DNA of 64,000 bases from NCBI RefSeq assembly GCF_017115025.1, contig NZ_JABXKM010000081.1, positions 1-64,000 on the forward strand. The letters run 5' to 3'. The position numbers were made by a program, and so were the translations under genes. Each line of letters opens with the position of its first letter. Position 1 is the stretch's first letter. Origin of the DNA: Nostoc sp. NOS(2021). GTDB lineage: Bacteria; Cyanobacteriota; Cyanobacteriia; Cyanobacteriales; Nostocaceae. This document shows positions 45,186-53,320 of the stretch, piece after piece. Under the pieces are notes generated by a model. The model worked only from the letters and a program-made list of their open reading frames with translations, did no database searches and was not told where the DNA came from.

Positions 45186-45469
45186 TATAAAAAATAATAA
45201 AAAGTGCTAGCAAGATAGCTTTTGCAGCAATCAAAATTGCTTGCTATTCTCAATACCTTCACCAAGAAGGTAGATATAGCCTTTGTGAAAATAACGCAAT
45301 GAAACTGCGTGATTGACTATTAGACAAAACGCCTAATCAGAAAGTAGCGAGAAACTTATCTGTTGAGCAGTTCATATCTGATTCACGCCATAAATCTATT
45401 GCTTAAAAGACTTAAGCGGTTAATTTGCTTTGCTAAAAACAGAGAAATAAATGTAGGTTAGAGTTCACA

Positions 45470-46834
45470 ATGTTAAGTAAACAGACTAATAAATTTCCAG
45501 AAGATGTTAAGAATATATGGGCTGCACCGGATACCAGCAGCCATGCCGAGAATTTTTCCTTCAAAGATTTTTTCCCAACGATTGGTTCATCTTTAGCGGA
45601 GCGTGTGAAACCTTGCTCTAATTGGCTGCATACACCAAATCCCTCCATCGGCCCCAATGCCTGTATGCTGACCTATTTCCCTCGTGAGGTCGTTGGGCCA
45701 ATTGAAAATCGAACTCTGATCAAAGATCCGCTCACTGGTGAGATCAGGTCAATGCTGATGTTCGGATCAAATAATTACCTGGGATTGACCACCCATCCCT
45801 ATGTTCGAGAAGCAGCAAAGCGAGCTATTGAAGAATTTGGTGTTGGTATGGGTGGGCCACCTCTACTCAATGGGATGAGCAGCCTCCATCGCCAACTTGA
45901 AGCCCGTATTGCCCAGTTCAAAGGCGCTGAAGACGCTCTCCTTTTTGCTAGTGGATTTCAGGCACAGTTAGGGTGGGTGAATGGTCTGTTACGCGATGAT
46001 GATGTTTTAATCTGCGACGAGTTTGGCCATGCCAGTCTGTATGATGCCATTAAGCTTGTGTCTATGGGTTCCAGGGTTCGCGCTTTTACCTTCAAGCACA
46101 ACGATTGTGACGACCTCGAACAGCGTCTGATCAAATGCAAGCAAGTTGGAGGAGCATCAAATCGATTAATCTATGTGGCTGTCGAAGGCGTATATTCGAT
46201 GGATGGCGATTTAGCTCCACTCGTAGCAATTCGTGAACTTTGTGACCATTACGGGGCTATTCTGGTCGTGGATGATGCACATGGCACTGGTGTCATGGGT
46301 AAAAAGGGCGGCGGTACTGATGAACACTTTGGTCTGAAAGGTCGAATTGATGTAACGATGGGGACTTTCAGTAAGGCATTGGGTGTCACAGGCGGCTTTA
46401 TCGCTGCTAGTCGTGATGTAATCGAGTATCTGCGCTTTTTCGCTCGGTCTTATATGTTTTCAGCATCTTTGCCTGCTCCTGTTGTTGCAGCTGTCTTGGC
46501 AGGTTTGGATATTATCGAGCGGGAGCCAGAACGTATCAGTCAGCTTCGAGCCAATAGTGCTTACTTGTTGCAGCAACTCCAAGAGGCAGGATTCCAAGCC
46601 AGCAGCGATTCTGCGATCATACCAGTGAGAATCCCGGCGGAAGTCGAAATTCGCACTCTTGCCTGGAGATTTCACCAAGAAGGCATCTTTGTGAATTCGG
46701 TCGAGTACCCTGCTGTTCCCCTCAATGCCCAAAGACTCCGAATCAGTGTCATGGCAACCCATACACATGAAGATTTAGATACATTTATTCACATTTTCCA
46801 AAAGTTGGATCGGGAATTAGGCATCGTCCGATAA
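45470..46834 (+). CDS. PLP-dependent alpha-oxoamine synthase (SPT/KBL/AONS/CqsA-like)
   Basis: This 454-aa enzyme belongs to the family that condenses an acyl-thioester with an amino acid, losing CO2, to give an alpha-amino ketone. The PLP lysine is K302 in GTFSKALGVTGGF; other active-site residues are H187 (DEFGHASLYD), the VVDDAHGTG box (about 266-274) and VEGVYSMDGDLAPL. SxxSASLPAP (YMFSASLPAP) also fits serine palmitoyltransferase and CqsA. About 85 N-terminal residues precede the domain, more than in biotin-pathway BioF. The next genes load and desaturate a fatty acid on a carrier protein. A long-chain amino-ketone product is therefore more likely than biotin synthesis. The ATG lacks a clear ribosome-binding site. 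The acyl-AMP ligase follows after 132 bases. Confidence 0.88.
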   Translation: MLSKQTNKFPEDVKNIWAAPDTSSHAENFSFKDFFPTIGSSLAERVKPCSNWLHTPNPSIGPNACMLTYFPREVVGPIENRTLIKDPLTGEIRSMLMFGSNNYLGLTTHPYVREAAKRAIEEFGVGMGGPPLLNGMSSLHRQLEARIAQFKGAEDALLFASGFQAQLGWVNGLLRDDDVLICDEFGHASLYDAIKLVSMGSRVRAFTFKHNDCDDLEQRLIKCKQVGGASNRLIYVAVEGVYSMDGDLAPLVAIRELCDHYGAILVVDDAHGTGVMGKKGGGTDEHFGLKGRIDVTMGTFSKALGVTGGFIAASRDVIEYLRFFARSYMFSASLPAPVVAAVLAGLDIIEREPERISQLRANSAYLLQQLQEAGFQASSDSAIIPVRIPAEVEIRTLAWRFHQEGIFVNSVEYPAVPLNAQRLRISVMATHTHEDLDTFIHIFQKLDRELGIVR

Positions 46835-46848
46835 ATCGTTGACGGTTA

Positions 46849-46877
46849 GAGAGACGCGATAAATCGCCGTCTCTACA
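46849..46877. repeat. Small palindrome between synthase and ligase genes
   Basis: AGAGACGCGAT and ATCGCCGTCTCT form an imperfect hairpin. It resembles dispersed palindromes of Nostocales and has no T-run. Confidence 0.6.
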
Positions 46878-46966
46878 GGGTATCCATCAATTATTTATTG
46901 ACAGACTCGTAGCTGACAAACCCGTAAATTTGCATGACTTTACTGTGTAAACCGTGAAATTGGCTT

Positions 46967-48910
46967 ATGACTATTTGTTTGGCTGATCTCCAAAACCCTC
47001 TTGACAAATTTTCAACTTTAATAGAATTACTGAGCTACAGAGCTAAAAATCAGCCTGAGAAAACAGCTTATATATTTCTCCGAGATGGAGAAACTGAAGA
47101 AAATAGACTGACTTATGGAGAATTAGACCTGCAAGCGCGATCGCTCGCATCTCATCTTCAGTCTCTAGTATCTCCCGGCGAACGGGCTTTGCTGTTGTAT
47201 CCACCGGGTCTAGAGTTCATTAGCGCCTTCTTTGGTTGTTTATATGCAGGTGTTATAGCAGTTCCCGCTTATCCACCGCGAGCCAATATGAACTTGCTCA
47301 GGTTGCAGGCGATCGTTAAAGATGCCCAAGCAAAGGTAGTCTTGACCACAAAATCCTTATTAACCAACCTGGGAAGTCAGTTAGTCGAAAATCCAGAGTT
47401 GGCAACTATGCACTGGTTAAACACTGATTACATTGACAGCAATCTCAGTTCAGATTGGCAAAAACCAAGACTAGAGAGCGACACCCTGGCTTTTCTTCAA
47501 TACACTTCCGGCTCTACCGGAACACCGAAGGGGGTGATGATCACTCACGGAAATTTGCTGTGCAACCAGAGATCCATCAAGATGGGTTTCGGACATACAG
47601 AGAAAACAATTTTTGCCGGTTGGTTGCCTTTATTCCACGATATGGGACTGATTGGGAATGTGTTGCAGCCTCTATATTTGGGTATACCGTCTATTTTGAT
47701 GTCACCAGTAGCTTTCCTCCAGAAGCCTTTTTCCTGGTTGCAAGCTATTTCTCGTTACAAAGCCACGACTAGCGGCGGGCCAGATTTTGCTTATGATCTG
47801 TGCGTTCGGAAGATTACTCCCGAACAGCTTTCTAGTCTTGACTTAAGTAGTTGGGAAGTGGCTTTCAATGGAGCCGAACCAGTTCGTGCCGAAACACTAG
47901 AGCTATTTGCTAGCTATTTCGCGCCTTGTGGTTTCCGTCGGGAAGCGTTTTACCCCTGCTACGGGATGGCTGAAGCGACTTTATTTGTTTCTGGAGGTTT
48001 GAAAACAGCTTCCCCCGTTCTCTATCAAGTTGAAGGAGCAGCCCTTGAGGAAAATCGGGTGGTGGCTGCTGAATCTGGGGAAGGGACTAAAACAATTGTG
48101 GGCTGTGGTCGCACTTGGTTAGATGAGAAAATCGCCATTGTCGATCGCGAATCTTTAACTCAGTGTCCCCCTGGCAAGGTGGGAGAGATTTGGGTGTCAG
48201 GTTCTTCTGTGGCTGGTGGCTATTGGAATCGACCAGAGCAAACTGAGGAAACTTTTCAAGGTTATCTGAGAGATACAGGAGTTAGCGATAGCGAAGCGTT
48301 AGCGAGTCCTCGATCGTCAGCGTTAGCGACGTTAGGAGCGTCAGGCCCGTTTCTTTGCACGGGGGACTTGGGATTTTTGCAAGATGGCGAACTGTTTGTC
48401 ACCGGCAGACTAAAGGATGTGATTATCATCCGAGGACAAAATCATTATCCCCAGGATATTGAGCTAACAGTTCAAAAAAGTCATCCAGCACTGCGATCGC
48501 ATTGTGGAGCAGCTTTCACTGTAGAGCAGAAGGGACAACAGCGATTAGTCGTTATTCAAGAGGTAGAACGAACCTATTTGAGGCGGTTGGATATTCAAGA
48601 AGTCGTCGGCAATATCACTGAAGTAGTTGTAGATAATCACGGTTTACAAGTGTATGCCACAGTTTTGATTAAACCTGGGAGTATTCCCAAGACATCTAGC
48701 GGGAAGATTCAGCGTCATGCGTGTCGGCGTGGGTTTCTAGATGGCAGTTTGAATGTGGTAGCGCACTGTAGCGGAAATCTTCAGCATCAAGCCCAGTTGC
48801 AAAAGTTGGAAGTTGATGTCAACTCACTCTTAGTAAAAGTCCAGCAAGCTAATCCTGATTCTCATAGAGTAAATATTCAGGAGGGCGCAAAAGCTGATGC
48901 AGTTCAATAG
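46967..48910 (+). CDS. Fatty acyl-AMP ligase (FAAL)
   Basis: Activates a free fatty acid as acyl-AMP for transfer to a carrier protein. The 647-aa protein has the adenylate-forming core YTSGSTGTPKGVMITHGNL (about 181-199), FHDMGLIGN, the FAAL-type CYGMAEATLFVSGG and the C-terminal TGRLKDVIIIRGQNHYPQDIE. A final K in SSGKIQRH is the usual catalytic lysine. FAALs, unlike CoA ligases, typically work with a partner carrier protein, and one is encoded at 51523. A 63-bp in-frame insert (48281-48343) adds about 21 residues (VSDSEALASPRSSALATLGA) just before the conserved TGDLGFL. The 3' end overlaps the next gene by 14 bases. Confidence 0.92.
   Translation: MTICLADLQNPLDKFSTLIELLSYRAKNQPEKTAYIFLRDGETEENRLTYGELDLQARSLASHLQSLVSPGERALLLYPPGLEFISAFFGCLYAGVIAVPAYPPRANMNLLRLQAIVKDAQAKVVLTTKSLLTNLGSQLVENPELATMHWLNTDYIDSNLSSDWQKPRLESDTLAFLQYTSGSTGTPKGVMITHGNLLCNQRSIKMGFGHTEKTIFAGWLPLFHDMGLIGNVLQPLYLGIPSILMSPVAFLQKPFSWLQAISRYKATTSGGPDFAYDLCVRKITPEQLSSLDLSSWEVAFNGAEPVRAETLELFASYFAPCGFRREAFYPCYGMAEATLFVSGGLKTASPVLYQVEGAALEENRVVAAESGEGTKTIVGCGRTWLDEKIAIVDRESLTQCPPGKVGEIWVSGSSVAGGYWNRPEQTEETFQGYLRDTGVSDSEALASPRSSALATLGASGPFLCTGDLGFLQDGELFVTGRLKDVIIIRGQNHYPQDIELTVQKSHPALRSHCGAAFTVEQKGQQRLVVIQEVERTYLRRLDIQEVVGNITEVVVDNHGLQVYATVLIKPGSIPKTSSGKIQRHACRRGFLDGSLNVVAHCSGNLQHQAQLQKLEVDVNSLLVKVQQANPDSHRVNIQEGAKADAVQ
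48281..48343. mobile_element. 63-bp small dispersed repeat inserted in frame in the FAAL gene
   Basis: The words GCGTTAGCGAGTCCTCGATC and CAGCGTTAGCGACGTTAGGA are repeat-like. The first matches the intergenic repeat at 40849-40876 (GCGGTAGCGAGTCCGCGAAC). Length is a multiple of three and there is no stop. In FAALs the flanking DTG and PFLCTGD would normally be nearly contiguous. Confidence 0.75.
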
Positions 48911-50504
48911 TCAAAGTCAGTCCTTAGAGAGTTCAAGTCGTCAACGTGCAGAGCAAGTCATCCATTGGTTACGTGATTATGCCCAAAGACGAATCAATTC
49001 TAGACTTATGGACGAGCGACGGTGTATAACTCCCCATGTCGTTCTAGACTTTGGCAAAAAAGGCTTGTTGGGAATGATTGTGCCTCAATCATCTGGGGGT
49101 CTGGGCTTAAGTTATAGTGATACGTTGCAAGTTATGGAACAACTTGCAGCTATTGATCTCAACTTAGCTTCATTTGTTGGTGTAAACAACTTTCTCGGAA
49201 TCTATCCAATTCTGAAGTATGGTACACCTCAGATCAAAGAAACTTATCTCCAAAATTTAGCCGAAGGAAGAGATTTAGCAGCCTTTGCCATTACCGAACC
49301 ATCTGCGGGATCTAATCCTAGAGGAATCAAAGCTGAAGCTCATACAGATGAAAGTGGTGGCTGGTTACTTAGCGGCACTAAAATTTGGAGCGGTTCTGCA
49401 TCTTGGTCAAGCGCGATCAATACTTTTGCTCATGTTGTAGATGAACAAGGCGAATCTTTGGGAATCACAGCATTTACCATCCCAGAAAATGCTCAAGGAT
49501 TGAGGCAAGGTACTGAAGCTCTGACTATGGGAATGCGAGGTATGGTTCAGAATACTATTTACCTTGAGCAGGTAAAAGTTAATCATGAAAATGTTTTAGG
49601 CGAAATTGGTTCGGGTTTTGAAGTAGCTCAGGACGCAATGCAACTGGCGCGATTGGGAATTTCTGCAACGTGTATTGGAGGAATGAAACGTTGTGCCCAA
49701 CTCATGCTTCGTTATGCAACCCGTCGCTCAATTGGTATAGAACGGCTAATAAATCAACAAATTACTTTACAACGTCTGAGTGATTTAACAGCAGCAATTA
49801 GCGCAGTTGAGTGCTTGGTGAAAAACATTGCTACATCCTTAGATCAAGGAAAACCTGTACCTCCAGAAGCTTATCTTGTCGCTAAAATTATCGCACCCGA
49901 ATTAATGTGGCAAGCAGCAGATAATCTTGTTCAACTGCTAGGTGGACGGGGTTATATCGAATCTAATATTGCGCCCCAAATCTTACGCGATGCTCGTTTG
50001 TTTCGGATTTTTGAGGGGCCGACTGAAACTTTACAGATGCACTTGGGTTTATTAGCTTTATACCAAACACCTCAACTCTGTTCATCTCTTAATCAGTTTT
50101 TGGGAGCGACAAAAATCAGTGAACAACTACAACACACGGCTGAATATTGTGCTTCTTACCTCAAAAATAAAAACCTATCTCGGAGCAGTAATAAGAAATT
50201 CAGTAAAATATTATCCCAAAAATTGGGTGATGTAGCTGTATGGGCATTTGTGCTTGCTTGCATACAAAATTCATATCAAAGTGAGCCGACAGATGAATTA
50301 AAACGTGTCGAAAAGTGGGGTCAACAATATTTTCAGGCAAAGATAGCTCATGCTCTTGCCGAAAATCTCTATGAGCAGACTTTACTAAATACTAATCAGG
50401 TGGAAAATCTGATTAATCAGTATGCAGAAAAAATTGGTGATGTCGAGCAAAATTTAGCTGGAGAAAAAGATGAACTGGATGAATATCTCTGTAAAAAAGC
50501 CTAA
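48897..50504 (+). CDS. Acyl-CoA dehydrogenase-family protein
   Basis: A 535-aa FAD flavoprotein expected to oxidise an acyl thioester to its alpha,beta-enoyl form. N-terminal helical domain with GLLGMIVPQSSGGLGLSYSD; flavin-binding FAITEPSAGSNPRGI and LSGTKIWSGSASWS; and the C-terminal RDARLFRIFEGPTETLQ, where the Glu of FEG sits at the position of the catalytic base. A C-terminal extension of about 140 residues is unusual for the family. The start is overlapped by the FAAL 3' end (14 bases) and has AGGAGG 12 bases upstream. Its first residues (MQFNSQSQSL) and leader resemble those of the desaturase two genes on, a sign of local duplication. Acting on acyl-carrier protein rather than acyl-CoA is inference. 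Confidence 0.88.
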   Translation: MQFNSQSQSLESSSRQRAEQVIHWLRDYAQRRINSRLMDERRCITPHVVLDFGKKGLLGMIVPQSSGGLGLSYSDTLQVMEQLAAIDLNLASFVGVNNFLGIYPILKYGTPQIKETYLQNLAEGRDLAAFAITEPSAGSNPRGIKAEAHTDESGGWLLSGTKIWSGSASWSSAINTFAHVVDEQGESLGITAFTIPENAQGLRQGTEALTMGMRGMVQNTIYLEQVKVNHENVLGEIGSGFEVAQDAMQLARLGISATCIGGMKRCAQLMLRYATRRSIGIERLINQQITLQRLSDLTAAISAVECLVKNIATSLDQGKPVPPEAYLVAKIIAPELMWQAADNLVQLLGGRGYIESNIAPQILRDARLFRIFEGPTETLQMHLGLLALYQTPQLCSSLNQFLGATKISEQLQHTAEYCASYLKNKNLSRSSNKKFSKILSQKLGDVAVWAFVLACIQNSYQSEPTDELKRVEKWGQQYFQAKIAHALAENLYEQTLLNTNQVENLINQYAEKIGDVEQNLAGEKDELDEYLCKKA

Positions 50505-50536
50505 TTTTGAACAATTGAATGAGGATGTAAAAGCTA

Positions 50537-51496
50537 ATGCAGTTAAATAATCAAAGTCCTTCTTTGTTTACTTCAACAAAAGAAGCAAAAATTACAATCA
50601 AAAATGATTACTTACAAACAATCCAAAAGCGGTTTGCCGCAGCCACGATCATCATTCCTTTGATCGGTACACTGATAGCGCTCAAATTCGCTTGGGATTT
50701 TGGAATTAGTCTCATGGAATTAGAATTGCTTTTGGTCTTTTGGTTTCTAACTATGGTTGGAGGGGTTACTGTCGGTAATCATCGGCTTTTATCTCACTGT
50801 TCTTTTAAAACCCACCAATCTGTGCGAGTTGCTTTGGCTATCTTGGGTTCTATGGCGGCTCAAGGCCCTGTTATTAATTGGGTTAGCAATCATAGACGGC
50901 ATCATCAATACAGTGACCAGATAGGAGATACTCATTCACCCAACCTTTACCAAGGAGAATCTTGGGGAAAGTTAAAGGGAATGTGGCATAGCCATATTGG
51001 CTGGATGCTTAGTGGTGAACTCACAAATTCTACAGTCTTTGCGAAGGATTTGTTGCAAGACCCTGTGATGAAAAAAGTCAACCAACAATACCTAGCTTTC
51101 GTTTTTTTGGGTCTTTTGATTCCAGCTACTCTTGGAGGAATATTGTCAGGTACTTGGATAGGTGTAGGGCAAGGATTTTTGTGGGGCGGACTGGTGAGAA
51201 TTTTTGTAGTGCATCATTTAACTTGGAGTCTTAACTCCATTGTTCATCTGTATGGTAATCGCTCTTTCAATACTAGTGAAAAGAGTACTAATAATCTTTG
51301 GTTAGCGATTCCTACAGGAGGAGAAGCATGGCATAACAATCATCATGCTTTTCCTAACTCGGCAAAGTTTGGGTTGCAATGGTGGCAAGTTGATTTCGGG
51401 TACTGGTTAATCCGCACTCTTGAAGTATTAGGTTTAGCTTGGGATATTAAAGTTCCCACGCTAGGAATGATTGAAGCGAAAAAAACTGCTAACTAA
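50537..51496 (+). CDS. Membrane fatty acid desaturase (delta-9/JamB-like)
   Basis: A 319-aa di-iron desaturase. The three histidine boxes are HRLLSH (H82-H87), HRRHH (H119-H123) and HNNHH (H266-H270). Hydrophobic segments surround residues 35-75, 95-112 and 188-225. The fold is that of acyl-lipid/acyl-CoA delta-9 desaturases (DesC) and of the JamB enzymes that make terminal alkynes on carrier-protein-bound chains; I cannot tell the regiochemistry. Placement between a FAAL system and its ACP favours a carrier-bound substrate. TGAGGATG lies about 12 bases before the ATG. A broken copy of its first 30 codons lies downstream at 53220. Confidence 0.92.
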   Translation: MQLNNQSPSLFTSTKEAKITIKNDYLQTIQKRFAAATIIIPLIGTLIALKFAWDFGISLMELELLLVFWFLTMVGGVTVGNHRLLSHCSFKTHQSVRVALAILGSMAAQGPVINWVSNHRRHHQYSDQIGDTHSPNLYQGESWGKLKGMWHSHIGWMLSGELTNSTVFAKDLLQDPVMKKVNQQYLAFVFLGLLIPATLGGILSGTWIGVGQGFLWGGLVRIFVVHHLTWSLNSIVHLYGNRSFNTSEKSTNNLWLAIPTGGEAWHNNHHAFPNSAKFGLQWWQVDFGYWLIRTLEVLGLAWDIKVPTLGMIEAKKTAN

Positions 51497-51522
51497 TTTT
51501 TAGTCTAACTTTTGGAGGATCT

Positions 51523-51783
51523 ATGCTTTCTCAACAAACTGAATCTTTGAAAGTCTCTACTACAGAAATCAAAGAATGGTTGATTTCTTATCTAGCAAAT
51601 TTGCTAGATATCGAACCCGAACAAGTAGATGTAGAAACCACTTTTGCACGTTATGGTTTAGATTCATCGGTAGCGGTGGTTTTAACCGGAGATTTAGCAG
51701 ATTGGTTAGGAAAAGAGCTAGAGCTAAGGCTAGTTTGGGATTATCCGACGATCGCAGACCTTGCACAACATTTAAGCAAATAG
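51523..51783 (+). CDS. Acyl carrier protein
   Basis: An 86-aa stand-alone carrier protein. The phosphopantetheine-binding serine is S48 in FARYGLDSSVAVVL, a pattern typical of carrier domains paired with FAALs in cyanobacterial lipid/polyketide pathways. A separate phosphopantetheinyl transferase is needed; none is encoded here. TTGGAGG lies close upstream of the ATG, and it is tightly spaced between the desaturase (26 bases) and the next gene (27 bases). Confidence 0.93.
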   Translation: MLSQQTESLKVSTTEIKEWLISYLANLLDIEPEQVDVETTFARYGLDSSVAVVLTGDLADWLGKELELRLVWDYPTIADLAQHLSK

Positions 51784-51810
51784 TTAGCGAATAGTTTTAG
51801 TACGGATTTT

Positions 51811-53061
51811 ATGGAGATGCTGGAAATGGTTTTATCTACCTTACAAGAAACAAAAGACTACATTGCTCTAGCTGCCTCATTAGGAAAGGAGTTTTCTAAA
51901 ACAGCAGTCGAACGGGATGCCAAAGGTGGTAGTCCCACCGCCGAACTAAATCGTCTGCGGGAAAGTGGTCTGCTTAAACTCCTCATCCCAGAAGAATATG
52001 GTGGATTTGGTCAAACTTGGATTACAGCCCTCAAAGTTGTACGAGAAATTGCCAAAGCGGATGGCTCCCTTGGTCAACTTTTGGGGTATCACTATGTCAA
52101 TTCTGTCCTTCCTGAACTAAATGGTACTCCCGAACAAAAAGCCCGGTTCTACAGCGAAACTACTCGCAACAACTGGTTTTGGGGTGATGCTGTTAATCCG
52201 CGAGATCCTAAATTGGTGCTAACACCAGATGGAAAAAATTTCCGGCTCAATGGTACTAAAAACTTTGCCACAGGCAGTACTGGCTCCGACATCATTGTAG
52301 TGACAGCAGCGCGAGGATATATGGAGAATCTTCCCGTTGCCATTGTTCCCAAGCATCGGGAAGGGGTGGAGAATCTTCCCGTTGCCATTGTTCCCACCCA
52401 TCGGGAAGGAGTGGTTCTCAATGACGATTGGGATTACATTGGACAGCGACAAACCGATAGCGGTAGCGTCAATTTTAATAATGTCTTGATTCACCGAGAT
52501 GAGATTCTGGGCAATCCTAACTCTAAGGATGCACCTACCTCCTTTGCCTCATTGGTGACCCCTGCTTTCCAGTGCGTCTTTGTCAATTTCTATCTGGGAA
52601 TTGCACTGGGCGCCTTTGAGGAAGGCAAGCAATATACACTCTCTGGAACCCGTCCCTGGATTTTTTCACCTGCCCACACGGCAGCTAAAGATCCTTATAT
52701 TATTGAGCAATACGGTAATCTCTGGGTGAGTTTGATTTCGACCATCAGCCATGTTGATTATGTCAACTCGGTCTTCCAATCTGCCTGGGAAAAGGGAGAA
52801 CACCTGACAGCCACCGAACGCGGTGAAACTGCTGTTACTATTAGCACTGCCAAAGTCTTGACTACACGAGTGGCATTAGATGTGACAAGCAAGATTTTTG
52901 AAGTGATGGGAACTCGTGCTGCTGCGACAAAATATCGCTTTGATCGCTTCTGGCGCAACGTCCGTACTCATACTCTGCATGATCCAGTTGCCTACAAAGT
53001 CCATGAAGTTGGTGACTGGGTACTCAACGAACAAATCCCACCCTTCACCATTTACACCTAA
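51811..53061 (+). CDS. Acyl-CoA-dehydrogenase-fold flavin monooxygenase (DszC/SfnB-like)
   Basis: This 416-aa protein has the dehydrogenase fold but lacks the YEG glutamate at the usual base position. Its C-terminus, RFWRNVRTHTLHDPVAYKVHEVGDW, is the signature of the DszC/SfnB group, which uses reduced flavin and oxygen to hydroxylate or oxidise S or N. The N-terminal LLKLLIPEEYGGFGQ and the LNGTKNFATGS segments are shared by both. A 45-bp tandem duplication (52324-52413) repeats ENLPVAIVPKHREGV in a surface-like loop. No flavin reductase is encoded in the cluster. It is the last intact gene of the operon. The upstream ATGs at 51811, 51820 and 51826 all fit; I keep the first. Confidence 0.8.
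   Translation: MEMLEMVLSTLQETKDYIALAASLGKEFSKTAVERDAKGGSPTAELNRLRESGLLKLLIPEEYGGFGQTWITALKVVREIAKADGSLGQLLGYHYVNSVLPELNGTPEQKARFYSETTRNNWFWGDAVNPRDPKLVLTPDGKNFRLNGTKNFATGSTGSDIIVVTAARGYMENLPVAIVPKHREGVENLPVAIVPTHREGVVLNDDWDYIGQRQTDSGSVNFNNVLIHRDEILGNPNSKDAPTSFASLVTPAFQCVFVNFYLGIALGAFEEGKQYTLSGTRPWIFSPAHTAAKDPYIIEQYGNLWVSLISTISHVDYVNSVFQSAWEKGEHLTATERGETAVTISTAKVLTTRVALDVTSKIFEVMGTRAAATKYRFDRFWRNVRTHTLHDPVAYKVHEVGDWVLNEQIPPFTIYT
52324..52413 (+). repeat. 45-bp tandem duplication in the flavoprotein gene
   Basis: Units 52324-52368 and 52369-52413 differ at three bases and give ENLPVAIVPKHREGV and ENLPVAIVPTHREGV in tandem. Confidence 0.95.
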
Positions 53062-53169: not shown

Positions 53170-53219
53170 GATGTTTTTCAGCTTAGTGAAGACAAGATTG
53201 AAGGAGGATGTAGAAGCTA

Positions 53220-53320
53220 ATGCAGTTAGACAATCAAAGTCATGATTTGGTGACTTGAACTAAAACAACAAAGATAATAATCCAAAATGATTACTTACTA
53301 AAGTCCTGTAAGTGCCATTA
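53220..53320 (+). pseudogene. Decayed copy of the desaturase start
   Basis: From an ATG at 53220 the frame reads MQLDNQSHDLVT, a stop, then TKTTKIIIQNDYL. This parallels the intact desaturase's MQLNNQSPSLFT, S, TKEAKITIKNDYL at 50537. The preceding GATTGAAGGAGGATGTAGAA also parallels the desaturase leader. The match fades after about 100 bases. It is a remnant, not a gene. Confidence 0.85.

Follow-up and report, generated by a model that had tools for sequence, protein, structure and literature searches.

The stretch of DNA analysed here, which we call the window, comprises 64,000 nucleotides of Nostoc sp. NOS(2021) (assembly GCF_017115025.1, contig NZ_JABXKM010000081.1, positions 1 to 64,000), from a genome of 7.62 Mb in 346 contigs. 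It carries a compact cluster that combines a pyridoxal phosphate (PLP)-dependent alpha-oxoamine synthase (AOS) with a fatty acyl-AMP ligase (FAAL), an acyl-CoA-dehydrogenase-like flavoprotein (ACAD), a membrane fatty acid desaturase (DES) and an acyl carrier protein (ACP), followed by a flavoprotein related to DszC and SfnB. An initial annotation had placed six closely spaced open reading frames (ORFs) of these families on one strand at 45470-53061; all six are found there on the forward strand with the spacings it gave, and Pfam and NCBIfam concur with the family assignments. The features of the cluster are as follows.

45470..46834, + strand: AOS, PLP-dependent alpha-oxoamine synthase, 454 amino acids (Pfam, NCBIfam, structure match, tree)
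46967..48910, + strand: FAAL, fatty acyl-AMP ligase, 647 amino acids (Pfam, NCBIfam)
48897..50504, + strand: ACAD, acyl-CoA-dehydrogenase-like flavoprotein, 535 amino acids (Pfam, NCBIfam), predicted to carry out 2,3-desaturation of acyl-ACP
50537..51496, + strand: DES, membrane fatty acid desaturase, 319 amino acids (Pfam), with three His boxes
51523..51783, + strand: ACP, acyl carrier protein, 86 amino acids (Pfam), with a GLDS site
51811..53061, + strand: DszC/SfnB-like flavoprotein, 416 amino acids (Pfam, NCBIfam), probably accessory
53197..53302, + strand: degenerate copy of the DES start, 105 bases, 83% identical to 50514-50618
45395..45469, + strand: 75 bases 5' of AOS, within the BLAST match of AOS to the congener G509 (45395-46836, 90.5%)

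The gaps between these genes, from AOS to the DszC-like gene, are 132, -14, 32, 26 and 27 bases, the reading frames of FAAL and ACAD overlapping by 14 bases. The first five proteins have the expected Pfam domains (Aminotran_1_2 of the AOS group, FAAL-type AMP-binding, three acyl-CoA dehydrogenase domains, FA_desaturase and PP-binding), and the motifs that we take to be catalytic are present, namely Lys302 and His187 in AOS, Glu373 in ACAD, the His boxes in DES and Ser48 within the GLDS of ACP. The sixth has a second acyl-CoA-dehydrogenase fold, closest to DszC/SfnB in both Pfam and NCBIfam. The neighbours appear to be housekeeping genes, with prmC, a Tic22-like gene and tRNA-Pro upstream and a tsaC-like gene downstream.

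The five genes from AOS to ACP recur as a set at the same site in a second genome. AOS was searched in 386 genomes of the phylum and 217 genomes of the family, and matches at E <= 1e-85 were found in four of the latter: the window's own genome, G509 (94%), G413 (43%) and G430 (44%). G509 has AOS, FAAL, ACAD, DES and ACP arranged as in the window, flanked by prmC and the tsaC-like gene, with identities of 94, 88, 92, 91 and 84%, respectively (from tblastn pieces), and with the same inner spacings of -14, 32 and 26 bases. The ratios of nonsynonymous to synonymous substitution rates between the two genomes (NG86) are 0.080 for AOS, 0.156 for FAAL, 0.168 for ACAD, 0.128 for DES and 0.278 for ACP, compared with 0.134 for the flanking prmC; the five-gene set is under purifying selection. 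At this site in eight further congeners, which we selected ourselves, no gene of the set is present; prmC and the tsaC-like gene are separated by about 50 to 520 bases in six of the eight, and G480 and G468 hold other DNA in this interval. The presence of the set in G509 and its absence from these eight congeners indicate that a single site has gained or lost it as a discrete unit; the same-site recurrence, equal spacings and purifying selection show that the grouping is more than chance. In both genomes that have the set, AOS travels with the other four genes. Two congeners also carry, between prmC and the tsaC-like gene, a pair of ORFs of about 1312-1315 and 167-170 amino acids (L187:3873-8419 and L216:7306-11850), which marks the position as a repeated insertion site; in G509 this ORF pair adjoins the five-gene set.

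The synthase itself scores below every curated cut-off of its family: 369 against 640, 325.5 against 500 and 251.1 against 670 bits for the SPT models, 360.2 against 460 for KBL, 356.8 against 426.45 for BioF and 192.5 against 428 for the CqsA/LqsA-type autoinducer synthase (NF005526). The protein can therefore be assigned as an AOS, without finer specificity. The initial annotation had raised the possibility that it is the sole BioF of the genome. We reject that identity, because a second AOS on another contig (G000:C35) exceeds the BioF cut-off (465.7 against 426.45 bits) and the window AOS does not. A CqsA-like reading is weak as well, given the score under the cut-off and the appearance of CqsA only at structural rank 34 (Z 40.6). 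As for a sulfonolipid (cysteate) synthase, the window AOS scores 195 bits with each of 28eh and 7u7h, compared with 269.6 for SPT; the accessible text on SulA describes a special Lys281 in that enzyme (PMC9304779). The predicted structure has a mean predicted local distance difference test score of 82.1, with residues 1-32 and loops 128-134 and 327-331 under 50, and its closest solved structure is S. multivorum SPT (3a2b; Z 47.4, root-mean-square deviation 2.2 over 389, 35% identity), nearly tied with KBL at Z 46.5.

Phylogenetic trees of rows that we selected place the window AOS in a clade of 20 (support 100/100 in the 51-row tree; SH-aLRT 99 in a 49-row tree that agrees), apart from BioF, KBL, SPT-like and PigH-like proteins and from two other cyanobacterial FAAL-linked lineages. 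Aligned with S. multivorum SPT, His138 corresponds to His187 and Lys244 to Lys302, and Ser81 corresponds to Pro130; in the 49-row motif table this proline is found in all 20 clade rows and in none of the other 29. According to the part of the SPT study accessible to us, Ser81 reaches the substrate carboxylate via water and His138 anchors the substrate (PMC10196870). Judged from its sequence, the window AOS is a member of an uncharacterised AOS subfamily with proline at the SPT Ser81 column, which we name GPP-type. The subfamily spans several phyla among the sampled rows, its substrate-anchoring loop is altered, and the window member shares about 35% identity with the nearest solved chains.

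Fusions in other cyanobacteria also connect FAAL with AOS. ACAD relatives at E <= 1e-80 occur in 15 of the 386 phylum genomes; in one of them, G382, FAAL, ACAD, ACP and AOS form a single ORF of 1683 amino acids, and in another, G002, a FAAL-ACP-AOS ORF of 1151 amino acids lies about 4 kb from ACAD (both by Pfam). Such single ORFs back the joint use of FAAL and AOS. Further FAAL+AOS ORFs of 1081-1112 amino acids are present in G083, G058, G211, G413, G101, G078 and G600; those of the first four belong to an SPT-side AOS lineage, and BLAST gave no match to ACP in them. Downstream of the fused ORF in G083, G058 and G211 come a short-chain dehydrogenase/reductase (SDR) and another FAAL, and a glycosyltransferase lies close by (for G083, Pfam identifies both the SDR and the glycosyltransferase). 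FAAL-linked AOSs fall into three separate lineages of the tree, and 34 of 291 genomes of the class have an AOS like that of G382 (E <= 1e-90). In G044 (Cyanobacteria bacterium RYN_339, a metagenome-assembled genome), matches to DES, ACP, FAAL and ACAD lie together on one contig and an AOS of the window subfamily (54%) at the end of another. We also compared 18 cyanobacterial AOS stretches of our choice, some cut by contig ends: 11 have a FAAL match, nine (G083 itself included) an SDR at least 60% identical to that of G083, and a different SDR is present in a further two. We would guess that these SDRs reduce a 3-keto base. The SDR of G382 scores 170.3 bits against a cut-off of 400 with the 3-ketodihydrosphingosine reductase model, and this model is outside the best 25 for the SDR of G083. 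Seven loci from two AOS lineages (L034, L035, L192, L238, L239, L240 and L243) combine FAAL+AOS with an SDR at least 63% identical to that of G083, six of them with a second FAAL, and are candidate sphingolipid-type loci. A different arrangement is seen at L191:1205-9484, where a 2760-amino-acid ORF with KS, AT, DH, ER-like, KR, ACP and AOS domains (Pfam), resembling a fused SgaA+SgaB, adjoins an SDR.

Relatives of the other four genes are found in polyketide synthase (PKS) and nonribosomal peptide synthetase (NRPS) settings. The window FAAL is 77-80% identical to FAALs of PKS/NRPS-type clusters in G328 and G199 and 76% to one in G382. DES, which is SCD1-like in sequence, has relatives of 56 and 48% in G382 that form a tandem pair flanked by ACP and FAAL genes, in a block ACP-DES-DES-FAAL-ACP that is followed by an AurF-like gene (below cut-off) and a PKS-like gene (assigned by eye). 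ACAD stays below the cut-offs of the prodigiosin PigA and RedW dehydrogenase models (136.9 against 500 and 148.5 against 650 bits). The occurrence of FAAL-ACAD-ACP and ACP-DES blocks ahead of PKS-like genes elsewhere indicates that these four genes are a movable acyl-starter cassette; in the window, AOS is the only nearby acceptor for it. A BtaA-like DUF3419 gene adjoins one FAAL-ACAD-ACP PKS/NRPS-type cluster (L169:1137-2315), and an ORF that looks similar by eye follows the AOS in L083.

We consider it probable that the five genes form one pathway to an unsaturated long-chain alpha-amino ketone. The evidence comprises gene content, gene order, same-site recurrence in two genomes, purifying selection, motifs and the fusions in other cyanobacteria; from it we infer the flow of substrate, the order of ACAD and DES and the product. 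FAAL would activate a fatty acid as acyl-AMP and load it onto the dedicated ACP, on which ACAD is predicted to insert a 2,3-double bond, giving 2-enoyl-ACP, and DES a further one. AOS, holding an amino acid as the PLP external aldimine, would then take the acyl-ACP and release CO2, the predicted product being an amino ketone of the type R-CH=CH-CO-CH(NH2)-R'. The sequence of steps proposed initially, from acid through acyl-AMP and acyl-ACP to desaturation and condensation, is thus supported for these five genes. No 3-keto reductase was seen by eye among the ORFs around the set, and a single SDR query, that of G083, gave only matches of 29-34% in the window's genome and in G509; as the set has no ketoreductase, the pathway in the host may end at the amino ketone, or a reductase encoded elsewhere may take it further.

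Several observations count against a joint pathway. The set is carried by only two genomes, and the 132-base gap between AOS and FAAL has room for a separate promoter; a scan for promoters and terminators found no sites in excess of shuffled sequence. AOS lies beside ACAD in only three of the 15 genomes with ACAD relatives (the window's own, G382 and G002), the stretches around ACAD in the other 12 having no AOS. The FAAL-ACAD-ACP blocks of G328 and G199 (ACAD 83% and ACP 56-61% identical to the window, FAAL as above) precede PKS/NRPS-like genes without an AOS, and the congener G278 has a more divergent block of this kind (46-53%, ACP 37%) elsewhere, also without AOS. We further scanned the collection genome_contigs for AOS with three aligned rows as seeds and inspected the best 80 of 120 relatives, where FAALs and an ACP lie near AOS in one record, that of G053, and ACAD+DES near none, although this absence is weak because several stretches are short or limited by contig ends. 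As to whether homologous clusters ever keep the synthase with its neighbours, a question raised by the initial annotation, G509 thus keeps five genes together, but the flanks of these relatives do not hold the set. Many relatives have AOS in another conserved setting, with UbiA-like, lipid-kinase-like, AIR-synthase-like and B12 radical-SAM-like genes (by eye), which occurs in Ignavibacteria and similar genomes. Four further records of the 80 show AMP-binding matches at 22-27%, and an ACAD-like match (24%) is present in one. The UbiA-like/lipid-kinase-like/AIR-synthase-like arrangement is seen in L046, L066, L072 and L083 among others, and the B12 radical-SAM-like gene in many. Two metagenome-assembled genomes from deep branches of the phylum (L032 and L033, one a Candidatus Sericytochromatia) have PEP-synthase-like, class III aminotransferase and reductase-like ORFs near AOS, weakly like genes of prodigiosin-type plasmid clusters (26-30%).

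One alternative is that FAAL-ACAD-DES-ACP is a JamABC-like starter cassette that serves, in trans, a PKS/NRPS encoded elsewhere in the genome, AOS next to it being unrelated. In G328, G199 and G382, the closest relatives found for FAAL, ACAD and DES adjoin PKS/NRPS-like genes, AOS is missing beside ACAD in the 12 genomes just mentioned, and the window's genome has 22 ketosynthase-family matches on other contigs. However, there is no ketosynthase match on the window contig (C64), which bears out the claim that PKS genes are absent, nor any NRPS gene near the set in the ORF list inspected by eye, and one PKS contig (C324) has a FAAL of its own (57%). Moreover, AOS and the cassette occur together in the only two genomes found with the window AOS, eight congeners lack both at that site, and FAAL-ACAD-ACP-AOS exists as one polypeptide. 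We therefore regard a cassette acting in trans as unlikely.

That all six genes form the pathway, with the DszC-like flavoprotein oxidising the amino ketone at N or C, an option that the initial annotation raised, is in our view also improbable. The gene lies 27 bases from ACP on the same strand, and around its relative in G382 (67%) no sulfonate cluster is visible by eye. Yet it is absent from the five-gene locus of G509 (no search was made for a copy elsewhere in that genome), so its membership in the pathway is left unsupported. The solved proteins most similar to it are two DszC enzymes, one of them thermophilic, and a methanesulfinate monooxygenase, and it stays below the cut-offs of the curated DszC and SfnB models (388.6 against 850 and 280 against 430.9 bits). 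Relatives at E <= 1e-60 occur in 20 of the 386 phylum genomes; three of the four others inspected by eye, on contig C107 of the same genome and in G203 and G308, lie amid sulfonate/taurine-type transport or TauD-like genes, the fourth, in G167, having no clear sulfonate setting. The gene also contains a 45-bp in-frame tandem duplication (52322-52414; protein repeat ENLPVAIVPxHREGV). It is probably a later, optional neighbour and not a required step. Beyond it lies the degenerate copy of the DES start, and the start of ACAD resembles the DES leader copied there (78% over 41 bases); both are signs of duplication and loss within the cluster. Finally, a short acyl donor for AOS, KBL- or BioF-like, with the cassette separately making unsaturated acyl-ACP for lipids, would suit the close SPT, KBL and BioF scores (369, 360 and 357 bits) and the structural near tie (47.4 against 46.5), but is very improbable in view of the true BioF elsewhere in the genome, the failure of AOS to reach any curated cut-off and the existence of FAAL/AOS fusions.

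Within the joint pathway, a real but tentative possibility is that desaturation is front-loaded in a route to sphingosine-type bases: trans-2-enoyl-ACP would be formed first, and AOS would then give a delta-4 3-keto base. With ACAD acting first and serine as the amino acid, the product would be 3-keto-sphingosine-like with a double bond at C4; DES would supply a second double bond, and the AOS subfamily may take a different amino acid in place of serine. Eukaryotes insert the delta-4 double bond only at the ceramide stage, and desaturation ahead of the AOS step would be an order unlike that route. If this is true, FAAL-AOS loci would be the missing genetic basis of cyanobacterial long-chain bases. 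As of 2022, two cyanobacterial ceramides were known, sphingolipid enzymes of cyanobacteria were still uncharacterised and Nostoc punctiforme had only a BioF, according to the accessible part of one report (PMC8895605). The five-gene set and the FAAL-AOS fusions are thus concrete candidates for long-chain amino-ketone synthesis in cyanobacteria; the window's genome has one match to an Sfp-type phosphopantetheinyl transferase.

In comparison with known systems, the closest proven logic is that of the rhodobacterial AasR-AcpR-SPT module. The accessible text on that module shows that the module has a ligase and an ACP of its own, that the former loads the latter and that the AOS takes acyl-AcpR, which correspond to the first, second and last steps proposed here, and that this feeding of an AOS from a ligase-loaded ACP is proven in Caulobacter (PMC9386255). 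A ligase and a dedicated ACP are likewise present beside AOS in the window. The module differs in that no ACAD or desaturase is described there in the same text, and in that it uses an SPT as its AOS; the window AOS belongs to another clade and scores under the SPT cut-offs. An AcpR and an SPT are also native to E. coli B (PMC9386255). Proposed from the outset, the resemblance to JamABC holds, since the set has FAAL, ACP and a desaturase with three His boxes; JamABC, as far as the accessible descriptions go, feeds PKS/NRPS, unlike the window set, which adds AOS and ACAD with no PKS near (PMC11837247, PMC8406139). PfSgaAB offers an AOS outside the classic sphingolipid operon that makes long-chain bases and is paired with an acyl-chain-building enzyme, but its chain is PKS-made in the account available, whereas the window set would take a ready fatty acid via FAAL (PMC12134224). 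For a desaturated tail, two ACADs beside FAAL and ACP are proposed as the explanation in the accessible text on rotihibin (PMC8552735). The nocuolin cluster, considered for its FAALs, was set aside on the basis of its different gene content in the available description (PMC5333925), and the accessible part of a survey from 2013, on PLP domains within PKS/NRPS assembly lines, was of no help here (PMC3870968).

The cyanobacterial FAAL-AOS and PKS-AOS loci resemble the window in that 11 of the 18 stretches combine FAAL with AOS, within a single ORF or at one locus, but they represent other AOS lineages and many have an SDR, which the window set lacks. In prodigiosin synthesis, the bipyrrole genes pigA/G/H/I provide a ligase, a carrier protein, an acyl-CoA-dehydrogenase-like oxidase and an AOS, so that the combination with an AOS is not wholly undescribed. 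Plasmid clusters of Methylocystis and Thioclava are, in our assignment, of the prodigiosin type, and the Methylocystis AOS aligns to residues 5 to 452 of the window AOS with 37% identity. These systems differ in their pyrrole chemistry, their ketosynthase and a longer AOS that starts with carrier-like domains (by eye), none of which is found in the window set. The initial claim that such a combination is undescribed therefore stands only in part: ligase, dedicated ACP and AOS together were already known from the accessible text of the rhodobacterial study (PMC9386255), but the exact five-gene set was not found described in the literature searched, a negative that is weak because most subscription papers lay outside it. 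Most parts of the system have precedents in AasR-AcpR-SPT, SgaAB, prodigiosin and JamABC, and what is new, within the searches made, is the five-gene set together with the uncharacterised AOS clade to which its synthase belongs.

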